This document shows, one piece after another, positions 38,796 to 46,960 of a stretch of DNA of 64,000 bases. Origin of the DNA: Acanthamoeba sp. SK_2022b (lineage: Eukaryota; Discosea; Longamoebia; Acanthamoebidae); the NCBI GenBank assembly GCA_027943245.1, contig JANDJZ010000054.1, positions 98,501 to 162,500 on the forward strand, in the 5' to 3' direction. How positions within the stretch are numbered: position 1 is the first letter of the stretch; each line of letters begins with the position of its first letter. A model generated the notes under the pieces. It made no database searches, had not been told where the DNA came from, and worked only from the letters and a program-made list of their open reading frames with translations. Position numbers and translations under genes: made by a program.

Positions 38796-41700
38796 ATGGA
38801 GACCCCTACACCTCAGGAGAACACAACACCAGTGCCCCAACAAGCGGGCGAGGATGTTGCAGCCGCCCCTGCCAAGCGGAAGGAGCCTGCGTCGTATGCG
38901 AAGCGCGATTTTTTGATCGCAATCGAGAAGGAGATCGCCAAGGATTGGGAAGAGAAGAAGCTGTGGGAGACAGATGCACCCAAGGAGGGTGAGACGAACG
39001 ATCCCAAATTCATGGTCACATTCCCGTACCCTTACATGAACGGCCGTCTTCACTTGGGCCACACCTTCACCGTGTCCAAGGCCGAGTACGCTGCCGGCTT
39101 CCAGAGGCTCAAGGGCAAGAGGGTTCTCTTCCCCTTCGGATTTCACTGCACTGGCATGCCCATCAAAGCGTGCGCCGACAAGATTAAGCGTGAAATCGAA
39201 CAATTCGGATGCCCGCCCAAGTTTCCCGAGCCCGTTGGTAGGTTTCTTAGACATCAATTATTATTGATTCTCGCCCTTGCCTCTGTCCTCTTGATGACGC
39301 AGAGCTGATGAAATTCTTCTTCTTCTTATTTTTTTTGTTATCCTTATTATTACCACATTTCAGAGGAACCCGAGGCTGCTACTACTCCAGAACCCACTCC
39401 CGAGAAGAAGAAGGTTGACCCCACCGCTTTCCACTCCAACAAGGTACACTGCGTGTTTCCCTTACGGTGATAGAGGACCCTCATCGCGACTTGGTTTCGG
39501 CGCTCACGGTGCACTTCCTCTCTTCCTCATGCGTGCGTCTTCGACCACCCAGTCCAAGGCCAAGGCCAAGGGCAGCGGAAGGGACAAGTACCAGTGGGAG
39601 ATCATGGAGGAGATGGGAGTGCCCGAGAGCGAGATCCCCAAGTTTGCCGATGCCCAGCACTGGCTTTACTACTTCCCCCCGTTCGCCATGGAGGACCTCA
39701 AGGACATGGGAGCCTGCGTCGACTGGCGTCGATCGTTCATCACCACCGACGTCAATCCCTACTATGACTCGTTCGTGCGCTGGCAATTCGAGACCCTCAA
39801 GGCTCAGGGCAAGGTCCAGTTCGGCAAGCGGTAACTCTCTCTCTCTCTCTCTCTTCAACATGAGGGTGCGTGGCCTATCTCCTGGGTGGGTGCTGACGTA
39901 CAGTTGTTGCACCAGATACTCGATCTATTCGCCGTTGGACGGACAGCCTTGCGCGGACCACGACCGCTCCAAGGGAGAAGGGGTGCTGCCGCAGGAGTAC
40001 ACTCTCATCAAGCAGGAGGTGCTCGGCCCTCTCCCCGAGAAGATGAAGGCGCTGGAGGGAAAGAAGGTCTACCTTGTGCCCGCCACCTTGAGGCCGGAAA
40101 CCATGTACGGTCAGACCAACTGCTACGTGCTCCCCACCGGCACCTACGGTGCCTACGAGATCAACGACACCGACGTCTTCATCTGCGGAGAGCAGGCCGC
40201 CAGGAGTACGACCGCCATCCTCGCTTCTGGAGGAGATGTCCTGGTCTTTGACGCAGCACTAACCACTGAGCGCAATCGTGTTGGCAACGCAGACCTCAGC
40301 TTCCAGGGCCACTCCAAGGAGTTCGGTAAGCCTGTGCGCTTGGTGGAGCTCACCGGCCAGGACTTGATCGGTCTCCGCCTCAAGGCGCCGCTCGCCAAGT
40401 ACGAGGCCATCTACGTCCTCCCCATGCTCACCGTCTCCCTCGACAAGGGCACGGGCGTGGTGACCAGCGTGCCCAGCGATGCCCCGGACGATTATGCCGC
40501 CCTCATGGACCTCAAGAACAAGCAGCCCTTCCGAGCCAAGTACAACGTCACCGACGAGATGGTGCTCCCCTTCGACGTGGTGCCCATCATCGACATTCCC
40601 GAGTATGGCGACACCGCTGCCGTGACGCTCTACAACGAGCTTAAGATCGCTAGTCAGAACGACAAGGACAAGCTCACCATCGCCAAGGACCGCGTCTACT
40701 TGAAGGGCTTCTACGACGGCGTCATGAAGGTTGGGCCTCACGCCGGAATGTACGCCGCCCCAACCTCCCTGAACAATGGGCTGTGCTTGCCATTGCGACC
40801 TTCAGCTCATTCCGATATTAATTGTGTGTTGGAAACAACGTTCTTCTCTGTCTCGCCCGCAGGAAGGTGCAGGACGCGAAGCCCCTCATCAGGAAGGAGT
40901 TGATCGACGCTGGGTTGGCCGTCGTGTACAGCGAGCCTGCTGAGACCGTCATTTCGCGCTCGGGCGACAAGTGCGTGTGCGCCCTCACCGATCAGTGGTA
41001 CATCGCCTACGGCGAGCCCGAATGGCGCGCCCAGGTACGCCCTGTTCTTCCCTCCCCTCCCCCCTCTCTCTCGTTGTCGGCGTCTGCCTTGGTGCTCACC
41101 CGTGTCACATAAACACTGAATTCAGGTGGAGGCCGTCTTGAAGGACATGGAGACCTACGGTACTGAGACGAGGCACCAGTTCGAGAAGACCCTTGATTGG
41201 TTGAAGGAGTGGGCCTGCTCGCGCAGCTACGGCTTGGGCACGAAGCTCCCGTGGGACACCCAGTACCTCATCGAGTCGCTCTCCGACTCGACGATCTACA
41301 TGGCCTACTACGCTGTCGCCCACCTGCTCCAGGCCGGCAGCCTCGACGGCTCCGTTGCCGGTCCGGCTGGCGTCAAGCCCGAGCAGCTCACCAATCAGGT
41401 GTGGGACTACATCTTTGCCCGCGGCGATCTTCCTGCCGAGACCACCATCCCGGTCGACACCCTCAAGACCCTCCGTCGAGAGTTCGAGTACTGGTACTGT
41501 GCCCACTGCAACTTGCAGTAACCCTGTGACACCGTCTTGTGTGTTGTGCCTTCATGTGCTCACCAGCGAGTCTCAATTCCTCTGAATGGTTCACACTCAC
41601 GCGCACGCACGATCAGGTACCCGTTGAACCTCCGCGTGTCGGGCAAGGATCTCGTGCCCAACCACTTGACGTTCTTCCTCTACAACCATGCCGCCTTCTT

Positions 41701-42910
41701 CCCCAAGGAGCGATGCCCGCAGGGCGTGCGCGCCAACGGCCACATCCTCCTCAACGGCGAGAAGATGTCCAAGTCGACGGGCAACTTCCTCACCCTGCGC
41801 GACGCGATGGAGAAGTACTCGGTGGACGGCATGCGCTTTGCTCTCGCCGATTCGGGCGACACGACCGAGGATGCCAACTTCCTCGATGAGACCGTGGACA
41901 CGGGCGTGCTCCGCCTCTACACGCAGATCGATTGGATCAAGGAGACCATCGCCAACTTGGGCAACCTCCGGGACGGCGAGCCGACGACCTTCTTTGACCT
42001 GGTGTTCCAGAGCGAGATCAACCGCGCCATCACCCTGACCGACGGCAACTACGAGCGCATGAAGTTCCGGGAGGCCCTGCTCACCGGCTTCTGGAACTTG
42101 CAGTCGGCGAGGGACAACTACCGCCTGGCCGAGAAGCAGATGAACCGGAAGCTCGTGGAGCGGTTCGTCGAGGTGCAGACCATCTTGCTCGCGCCCATCT
42201 GCCCGCACTACTGCGACTACATCTGGACCAAGCTCCTCCACCGCGCCGGCTCCGTGCGCCAGGCGTCCTGGCCCGAGTCGGGGCCCGTCGACGAGGCGCT
42301 CTTGGCCCAGAACGACTTCCTCCAGGAGGTCCTCCACACCTTCCGCATCCGCATCCAGAACACGCGGGAGCAGTTTGTCGATACGGCCAACGGCTACGTC
42401 TACGTGAGCGACGAGTTCCCCTCGTGGCACCAGAAGGCCATCAGGGCCCTCCTGCCCCTCTTCAACTCGGCCACCGGCGAGTTCGAGCCCGACTTCAAGA
42501 AGAAGGTCTCCGACGCCCTCAAGGAGGACCCCTCGCTCAAGGCCGACACCAAGAAGGTCATGAACCTCGTCGCCGACATGCCCAACAGGATCAAGGCCGA
42601 CGGCCCCGCGGCATTCAACCTCGCCGCCCCCTTTGACCAGTTGGCGCTCCTCAACAGCAACCAGGAGTTCTTGCGCGAGCAGCTCGGCCTTGCCGCCCTC
42701 TCTATTTATTCGGCCTCGGACGCCGACGCCCCCGACCACGACAACAAGAAGGCCACCGCCGTCCCGCTCAAGCCGGTCTTCACCTTTGCTGGCGAAAAGA
42801 AGAAGGTCGAGAAGAAGCCCGCCGCCAATAAGGCCAAGCCCGCCGCCGCCGCCGCCAAGAAGCAGAACCCGCCCAAGAACCAGAAGAAGGCCGCTCCTCC
42901 CGCCAACTAG
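38796..42910 (+). CDS. LARS1: Leucyl-tRNA synthetase, cytosolic
   Basis: Charges tRNA-Leu with leucine in the cytosol. ATG 38796; exons are long, separated by short introns. The archaeal/eukaryotic LeuRS form is clear: [20 protein letters not shown] contains the HIGH motif (HLGH), followed by [20 protein letters not shown]. The CP1 editing domain spans about 39940-40740 ([15 protein letters not shown], threonine-rich editing pocket; [19 protein letters not shown]). After it come [33 protein letters not shown] and the KMSKS motif in [17 protein letters not shown] (about 41757). The anticodon-binding domain and C-terminal region follow, ending in a Lys/Ala/Pro-rich tail; TAG 42908-42910. Codon use is highly biased to C/G third positions, as expected for strong expression. 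A tRNA-Leu locus lies 266 bp downstream. Confidence 0.96.
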
Positions 42911-43083: not shown

Positions 43084-43090
43084 AAAAAAA
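43084..43090 (-). terminator. Probable Pol III T7 terminator for the tRNA-Leu locus
   Basis: Seven T residues on the minus strand, the first run of four or more T after the B box, about 85 nt past the anticodon arm. The intervening trailer contains GGCGCGA (43154-43148), complementary to TCGCGCC in the leader (43281-43275). Confidence 0.5.
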
Positions 43091-43175
43091 CGAAATGGGG
43101 AGGTGGTTGCGTGAAGCGCCTCAGGGTCGTGAGACCTTGCCTCTTACTCGCGCCTAGTAGCCAGATTTCGAAGTA

Positions 43176-43256
43176 AATTGGCTTAAGCAATTCGCCTTAG
43201 ACCACTCGGCCACCCCAGCTTGAGAGTGTGTTGCTGGGGCCGGGATTCGAACCCGG
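43176..43256 (-). tRNA. Putative circularly permuted tRNA-Leu(UAA)
   Basis: Read on the minus strand, the 3' half comes first: T stem 43256-43252, loop TTCGAAT, T stem 43244-43240 (5/5 pairs), acceptor 3' strand CCCCAGC 43239-43233 and discriminator A 43232. A 12-nt spacer follows (43231-43220). Then comes the 5' half: acceptor 5' strand GCTGGGG 43219-43213 (7/7 pairs with the 3' strand), TG, D arm GCC/GGC, G26, and anticodon arm AATTG-CTTAAGC-CAATT (43192-43176, 5/5 pairs). The anticodon is TAA (43185-43183). Internal promoters are consensus but in reversed order: B box GGTTCGAATCC 43253-43243 before A box TGGCCGAGTGG 43212-43202. I find no normal-order partner for either half nearby. The variable arm and the exact processing junction are not resolved. 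The alternative is two truncated tandem copies. Confidence 0.6.
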
Positions 43257-43506
43257 GAAAGAAGTTAGACGTTCGGCGCGAAGGACAACGCAAGACGCTG
43301 TTCACCTAGCACCTCCACCTACCCTTGCATGTGTTGGCCACCCCTACAAATGCCTCGTCCTGCGACTTGCTGCGCTTATTATGGGCACCTTTAACTCCGA
43401 AATTATCTTAACTGAAGCAGTTTTTGCGGGGCAAGCAACCCCCCCCCCTTCGGCACAGGTCGCCTCACTTCGGCTACATAAATTAAAAAACTCCACACGA
43501 GAGCGT

Positions 43507-46352: not shown

Positions 46353-46434
<82 letters not shown>

Positions 46435-46960
46435 CGCGCGCGCGCGCGCGCAAGAATCTTGGGCGCACCAGTTGTTTTTGTCGCGGGCGTTAACGTTGGA
46501 CTTGGCTTTGACGAGCACCTTCACCACGCCAAAGTGGCCCTCGAAGCAGCCCACATGCAGAGGCGTCTGCTCCCTAGAGGGGAGGGCGACAGGGGAAGTG
46601 GGAGTGAGGAGGGACAAGAGAAATGAACCTCCTTCCCTTGCGGGCGCCCGAGGCAATCAATGAGTTCGTGTGCGATAGGTACCATTCATCCTTTTTGTCA
46701 ATGGAGCCCTTAGACTTACGCAGGGCTGCCTTGAGTTCCTTCACGTCACCTGAGAGCGCCCCATAAGATGGAAATCAAATTTGAATTATGGGTAATGCGG
46801 CGCGTAAAGGGAAATGCCCTCAGCGAGGGGGGGGGATCGCACTTTAAATGAAATGAAGGATCAAAAAGGGAACCAAAGCAAAAGAGATATACGAACCACT
46901 TTTGGCGATGCGATGAAGGGCCGACAGGGATTGCTCTCCGCTGATGGCCGCAAGCGCCAT
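43507..46960 (-). CDS. Ankyrin-repeat protein fused to DUF2199
   Basis: Minus-strand gene of about 12 short exons, ATG 46960 to TAA 43507-43509. The start MALAAISGEQSLSALHRIAK runs into ankyrin repeats: DVKELKAALRKSKG, EQTPLHVGCFEGHFGVVKVL, RRTPLHAAASGLTSDHVKVC, GSCPLHYFVRMD, GESPLHHAAIKGREH, YGESSLVVAIRSARADMVRL. After an acidic Asp/Glu-rich linker (44800-45030) comes a zinc-ribbon-like CTLC segment, then LDLCIIVK, KYFVRGLIHIPTLA, LTWGVWVRVNEETFKWIV and RPTLVVLDAHPLAAQQ, which match DUF2199, a family I know mainly from bacteria. Function unknown. The exons join in phase across the linker, but cDNA would be needed to exclude two genes. One intron contains the (TG)36(CG)12 tract. Confidence 0.72.
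46355..46450. repeat. (TG)36(CG)12 alternating purine-pyrimidine tract
   Basis: 72 nt of uninterrupted TG (46355-46426) followed directly by 24 nt of CG (46427-46450), inside an intron of the ankyrin-DUF2199 gene. 96 nt of strict purine-pyrimidine alternation is a strong candidate for Z-DNA. Confidence 0.97.

Follow-up and report, generated by a model that had tools for sequence, protein, structure and literature searches.

A candidate pair of paralogous circularly permuted nuclear tRNA genes, Leu(UAA) and Arg(UCU), in an Acanthamoeba genome

We describe a locus which, judged from its sequence, is probably one of two paralogous, functional circularly permuted nuclear tRNA genes, Leu(UAA) and Arg(UCU), with a new type of junction; we give this reading a probability of about 0.68. 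The Leu(UAA) copy lies on the minus strand of the window (the whole stretch of DNA that was analysed, 64 kb, G+C 57%), and the Arg(UCU) copy lies elsewhere in the same 45-Mb assembly. At each of the two loci the 3' half of a tRNA stands upstream of its 5' half, the arrangement by which a permuted tRNA gene is recognised. Neither is reported as a conventional gene by ARAGORN, nor by RF00005 at its gathering score.

The Leu tRNA body was located by direct reading and by a script on the minus strand from 43256 to 43176. As the first-pass annotation of this DNA had claimed, the T arm and the acceptor 3' strand precede the acceptor 5' strand, the D arm and the anticodon arm. Its pair counts for the acceptor (7/7), the T stem (5/5) and the anticodon stem (5/5) were reproduced by both approaches, and it had correctly placed the B box ahead of the A box and the break at the variable arm. 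The 12-nt spacing and the T7 terminator that it described are likewise present. The parts of the unit, from the leader to the terminator, and the neighbouring gene are as follows.

43084..43290, minus strand: the permuted tRNA-Leu(UAA) unit as a whole, leader and terminator included, with a provisional 5' end, located by direct reading, DNA similarity and the covariance model R1 (see below); the pairing may extend to about 43320
43283..43288, minus strand: leader motif TTGTCC, with the same letters in the Arg(UCU) sister; GAGGCAA in the trailer is a possible pairing partner
43275..43281, minus strand: leader strand of the leader/trailer helix, TCGCGCC (CGCAGAC in the sister)
43240..43256, minus strand: T arm including the B box, CCGGGTTCGAATCCCGG, 5/5 pairs (R1 and script)
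43233..43239, minus strand: acceptor 3' strand, CCCCAGC (R1 and script)
43232, minus strand: discriminator A73, with no encoded CCA behind it
43220..43231, minus strand: 12-nt spacer from the mature 3' end to the mature 5' end (script)
43213..43219, minus strand: acceptor 5' strand, GCTGGGG, 7/7 pairs with the acceptor 3' strand
43193..43212, minus strand: D region including the A box, TGGCCGAGTGGTCTAAGGCG; the D stem has 3/4 pairs, the fourth being G.A
43176..43192, minus strand: anticodon arm, AATTGCTTAAGCCAATT, with anticodon UAA (TAA) and loop CTTAAGC, 5/5 pairs
43167..43175, minus strand: TACTTCGAA, immediately 3' of the anticodon arm, with the same letters in the sister; putative junction site
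43148..43154, minus strand: trailer strand of the leader/trailer helix, GGCGCGA (GTCTGCG in the sister)
43137..43149, minus strand: trailer motif, GAGTAAGAGGCAA; mismatch-free GAGTAAGNGGCAANGTC occurs in the own genome at the two permuted loci only
43084..43090, minus strand: T7 run, a Pol III-type terminator, read as A7 on the plus strand
38796..42910, plus strand: multi-exon gene of a cytosolic leucyl-tRNA synthetase, in convergent orientation to the permuted gene and outside the unit

From 43320, in the folded leader, to the terminator the script found no further run of at least four T. A simple text scan found no TATA-like site within 160 bases upstream of either the Leu or the Arg leader. 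Conventional tRNAs in the 64-kb window numbered 0 by ARAGORN and 0 by Rfam at the gathering threshold, in agreement with the earlier remark that the window holds no conventional partner half.

A DNA search of the assembly with the Leu unit found two places, the window itself and a second locus that aligned with positions 3-196 of the 207-nt query at 69% identity (E 3e-8). The reverse search from this second locus returned the same two loci only. The sister is built as follows.

C488:56537-56729: Arg(UCU) sister, consisting of T arm GCGGGTTCGAATCCCGC, acceptor 3' strand CGTCCTC, discriminator G73, 8-nt spacer, acceptor 5' strand GAGGGCG, D arm and anticodon arm TTGAA-CTTCTAA-TTCAA with anticodon UCU

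The anticodon loops are complete at both loci, with 7 nt each (CTTAAGC in Leu and CTTCTAA in Arg). Both units end with a T7 terminator and contain no other T4 run, including within the spacers of 12 nt (Leu) and 8 nt (Arg), and CCA is not encoded. Leader and trailer are also conserved between the two loci, and the leader/trailer helix is kept with other letters (TCGCGCC/GGCGCGA in Leu versus CGCAGAC/GTCTGCG in Arg). According to the script, 20 of the 21 tRNA pairs form at both loci; the exception is the last pair of the D stem, which is G.A in Leu and Arg alike. Both partners have been replaced in nine of the 20 pairs (T stem one, acceptor three, anticodon stem five), a single partner in one, and ten are unchanged, a count that comes from two sequences and is not a statistical covariation test. 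Since every stem has been kept while the letters changed, decayed or truncated copies are disfavoured. The same sister, with its nine compensatory changes and 20 retained pairs, speaks against the main alternative of the first-pass annotation, namely two truncated tandem copies.

The discriminators suit the respective classes, as A73 is found in the genome's own Leu genes and G73 in its own Arg(ACG) genes. A point against functional permuted tRNA genes is that the D loop of the permuted Arg gene is Leu-like (AGTGGTTAA) and unlike that of the own Arg genes (AATGGAAA). The permuted Arg(UCU) gene may have been recast from a permuted Leu gene through changes of the anticodon arm, the acceptor and the discriminator. 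Given a second member of the same design, the permuted design is, as far as two loci in one assembly of one species can tell, a gene type and not an accident.

To score the arrangement as a whole, a covariance model (R1) was trained solely on 14 of this genome's conventional tRNAs, with their halves put in the permuted order; neither the Leu nor the Arg permuted locus was included in this training set. R1 matched the Leu locus end to end with 59.3 bits (E 4e-13), which was its sole match in the window at E up to 10, and the Arg locus with 63.1 bits (E 3.5e-14). Adjacent conventional tRNAs that were matched across the gap between them served as the yardstick, reaching at most 44.5 bits at 11 loci of the same genome and up to 46.3 bits in a bacterial Phe-Val-Gln tRNA cluster. 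With 59.3 bits, above both values for tandem conventional tRNAs, the Leu locus is no mere look-alike. When RF00005, whose gathering score is 29, was applied to the Arg(UCU) locus, the 5' half alone (L029, 1568-1620) gave 28.9 bits. As this falls only just short, a conventional scan could half-detect genes of this kind.

With the tRNA domain kept fixed, leader and trailer can form 39 cross pairs at the Leu locus and 47 at the Arg locus, and these numbers fell to 17 and 25 when the trailers were swapped. The leader/trailer energies corresponded to z values of -2.5 and -2.9 relative to dinucleotide shuffles. As many cross pairs were reached by 29 of 300 shuffles for Leu and by 5 of 300 for Arg, so the pairing is only moderately beyond shuffles. 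An alternative fold, in which TTGTCC pairs with GNGGCAA, costs 0.4 and 1.7 kcal/mol at the two loci. For a strict 3-4-3 bulge-helix-bulge between leader and trailer, 161 of 300 shuffles reached the best score at one locus and 198 of 300 did so at the other; relaxed forms were also listed, with no shuffles for comparison. The 7-bp leader/trailer helix noted in the first-pass annotation is real as a pairing, but the splicing through a circle that was expected from it gains nothing from a strict bulge-helix-bulge, which does not rise above shuffles.

The conserved flanks were also used as search motifs. In the own genome, the trailer motif with up to three mismatches gave 1006 matches versus 1271 in the control, and the leader motif gave 210 versus 256; mismatch-free matches of either motif lay at the two permuted loci only. 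When R1 was applied to 30 of the trailer-motif places, it returned the two permuted loci and one 8.4-bit match only. The trailer motif occurred in 18 stretches of viral contigs, with no R1 match at E up to 1. In prokaryote genomes, the leader motif occurred in 27 stretches, about as many as chance would give with 17 fixed bases among 257 billion. Only one of these 27 (L115) had R1 matches, three of 46.3, 44.5 and 31.5 bits within the conventional Phe-Val-Gln tRNA cluster and a further one of 15.0 bits.

We then considered which conventional genes could serve the same codons. The first-pass annotation had named a conventional tRNA-Leu(UAA) gene elsewhere as a point that would count against its proposal, and in this part it was borne out: a look for normal tRNA-Leu(UAA) genes by pattern searches found one (C991:107173-107257, 60.8 bits), which has a long variable arm and does not encode CCA. 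Hence, the permuted Leu copy is not needed for UUA decoding, and it is ruled out as the sole source of Leu(UAA). A first, narrower Leu pattern gave 19 matches, one of them UAA, and missed this gene; a looser pattern gave 47 matches (24 in the backward control) and found it, with one extra D-loop base.

For Arg(UCU), a eukaryotic anticodon-arm pattern with up to three mismatches gave 29 matches, and the sole UCU tRNA arm among them was that of the permuted gene on C488. The other 28 were assigned by eye as 10 Trp-like, 15 Arg ACG, 2 Arg CCG and 1 without a tRNA. A freer arm pattern with one mismatch gave 2 matches (14 in the backward control); by eye, the anticodon stem pairs in neither. Another pattern, which runs from the Arg A box up to and including position 37 and would tolerate an intron at 37/38, gave 24 matches (15 ACG, 7 CCU, 2 CCG and no UCU, as read from the matched letters; 0 in the control). 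The permuted gene's own D arm, used as a pattern, gave 1 match, again on C488. In the RF00005 genome search, the best 63 of 1099 candidates were scored. ARAGORN over 81 loci reported one Arg(UCU) gene, on C1108; it was rejected as a host gene and attributed to bacterial contamination, as it has an encoded CCA and adjoins an enterobacterial-type folD. Judged from these searches, which are not exhaustive, a host-type conventional Arg(UCU) gene is likely absent from the genome, while a divergent or differently interrupted gene could escape such patterns and the assembly may be incomplete. Both AGA and UUA are rare but used, with one of each in 586 codons of the leucyl-tRNA synthetase gene.

The product of that gene comes closest to the human cytoplasmic chains. 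The gene is convergent with the permuted tRNA-Leu, and some 175 bases separate its end from the tRNA terminator. No arginyl-tRNA synthetase was seen by eye among the ORFs beside the Arg locus. As the Arg sister has no such visible neighbour, the adjacency of leucyl-tRNA synthetase and permuted tRNA-Leu may be a coincidence. Bacterial origin of the Leu locus is ruled out by its multi-exon eukaryotic neighbour. Bacterial contigs do occur in the assembly, namely C1108 (tRNA-Arg(UCU) with encoded CCA, and folD) and C1005 (a tRNA cluster with encoded CCA). Elsewhere in the window, a long GT/CA dinucleotide run lies at 46358-46468 within spurious reading frames.

If the two units are functional permuted tRNA genes, RNA polymerase III would make a single transcript of about 200 nt from each, ending at T7. 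Its order would be leader, T arm, acceptor 3' strand, spacer, acceptor 5' strand, D arm, anticodon arm and trailer. Pairing of leader and trailer would hold both tRNA ends in place, RNase P and tRNase Z would excise the spacer, and CCA would be added post-transcriptionally, a step proposed because CCA is not encoded. Loss of the leader and trailer and ligation of the two halves within the variable region would yield a tRNA for UUA or AGA codons, which would presumably be charged. As the strict bulge-helix-bulge did not stand out from shuffles, the joining step is proposed by analogy only. Within this reading, the chance that the halves are joined is in our estimate about two in three, and the chance that the tRNA stays permanently in two pieces about one in five.

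The most serious rival, although unlikely in our view, is a tRNA mimic resembling Y RNA, that is, a stable non-coding RNA of about 200 nt with an end-to-end stem and a permuted tRNA-like domain, which would be bound by a Ro60/Rsr-type protein and would never be a tRNA. Bacterial YrlA combines a stem of paired ends with tRNA-like D, T and acceptor arms, according to the accessible part of PMC8394870. The Rfam YrlA model, in which the T arm comes before the D arm, gives weak matches to the Arg locus (24.2 bits, E 0.0069) and the Leu locus (19.9 bits, E 0.12). The genome also has two loci with a TROVE domain (Ro60-like), at C662:2476-3678 and C409:138342-139783; the C662 locus has a 730-aa open frame with no internal stops. 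Moreover, the conserved, unpaired-looking leader and trailer motifs, TTGTCC and GAGTAAGNGGCAANG, would suit protein binding. However, the two YrlA scores stay far under the gathering score of 69, by which membership of the family is judged. The model also has no anticodon arm, whereas both loci have a perfect one in which all five pairs have changed on both sides, and anticodon loop and discriminator agree on one amino acid at each locus. The Ro-binding helix of vertebrate Y RNA was not seen by eye at either locus.

Less likely again is that the genes are functional and their halves are never joined. The spacer would be opened by RNase P and tRNase Z, and the acceptor stem and the leader/trailer duplex would hold the pieces, with the duplex replacing the variable arm; this is a sub-case of functional permuted genes as regards function and a rival as regards mechanism. 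The break does sit at the variable region, where class II tRNAs tolerate a long helix, but we know of no precedent for such a long helix on a ribosome-bound tRNA. The strict bulge-helix-bulge that fails to exceed shuffles and the loss of cross pairs upon trailer swapping both fit halves that stay apart, while the 29 of 300 shuffles that equal the Leu pairing speak against them. In the accessible text of PMC3978253, permuted tmRNAs function in two pieces, whereas the permuted tRNAs described there are all re-ligated. A two-piece nuclear Leu(UAA)/Arg(UCU) tRNA that has a duplex in place of the variable arm and is the sole reader of AGA codons seems to us improbable. Least probable of all are non-functional remnants, in which a tandem tRNA pair lost its outer halves, was duplicated once and has been drifting since. 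The conventional Leu(UAA) gene does render the permuted Leu copy dispensable, and tandem conventional tRNAs mimic the permuted order up to the 46.3 bits given above. However, neutral drift to 69% identity should break stems, and here nine pairs have changed on both sides with no further pair lost. In addition, the acceptor has 7/7 pairs at each locus with different sequences, and leader and trailer are conserved even though they lie outside any tRNA.

If the two loci are indeed functional permuted tRNA genes, then, in a host that seems to be a non-photosynthetic eukaryote and with their variable-region junction and conserved flanks, they would show that the permuted arrangement arose again, and that anticodon and acceptor can change while a gene is permuted. 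Should the Arg copy be the sole source of AGA-reading tRNA, its processing pathway would be essential and open to direct test. As standard tRNA finders report neither locus as a tRNA gene, others may be overlooked.

What is new in these genes, as read from their sequences, is the junction in the variable region together with the conserved flanks, and the host group is probably new for permuted tRNA genes as well. In the open literature, the phrase permuted tRNA was found in connection with Acanthamoeba in a reference list only; later or closed work may differ. In the accessible part of PMC3978253, 34 permuted tRNA genes were tabulated in 2014, with red and green algae, one nucleomorph and one archaeon as hosts. 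The junctions tabulated there are 15/16, 20/21, 37/38, 50/51 and 59/60, and none of them is in the variable region. The same table has permuted Leu(TAA) genes from C. merolae, O. lucimarinus and M. pusilla and a permuted Arg(TCT) gene from O. tauri, with junctions elsewhere than here. For the known permuted tRNAs, the accepted model is that the splicing endonuclease cuts the ends at a bulge-helix-bulge, that the ends are joined and that the spacer is removed afterwards, and the known set includes junctions without the central helix of the bulge-helix-bulge (PMC3978253, accessible part).

Compared with the permuted tRNAs of algae and Thermofilum pendens, as far as the available portions of PMC3978253 and PMC3218864 describe them, the present loci share the 3' half in first place, the absence of encoded CCA (in eukaryotes), the T-stretch terminator, and a leader and trailer able to pair. 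The spacers of 12 and 8 nt compare with 1-74 nt in those genes. The differences are the variable-region junction, the lack of a strict bulge-helix-bulge above shuffles, the long leader and trailer conserved across two isoacceptor families, and a host that is apparently no alga. Bacterial YrlA and Y RNA (RF02553; PMC8394870, accessible part) likewise have a T arm, an acceptor-like stem and a D arm permuted within a long end-to-end stem; unlike YrlA, the loci described here have a complete anticodon arm, a decoding loop and a matching discriminator. With two-piece tmRNA (PMC3978253, same portion) they share the permuted order and the cut-out between the mature 3' and 5' ends, but an anticodon arm is present here, the break is elsewhere, no tag reading frame was noticed, and RF04321 gives 11.2 bits at the Arg locus. 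Finally, the nematode nev-tRNAs, in the accessible part of PMC4033280, combine a Leu/Ser-like body with a foreign anticodon, similar to the Leu-like D arm of the Arg(UCU) copy. The nev-tRNAs are not permuted, however, and the discriminator of the copy described here is G73, as in the genome's own Arg(ACG) genes.
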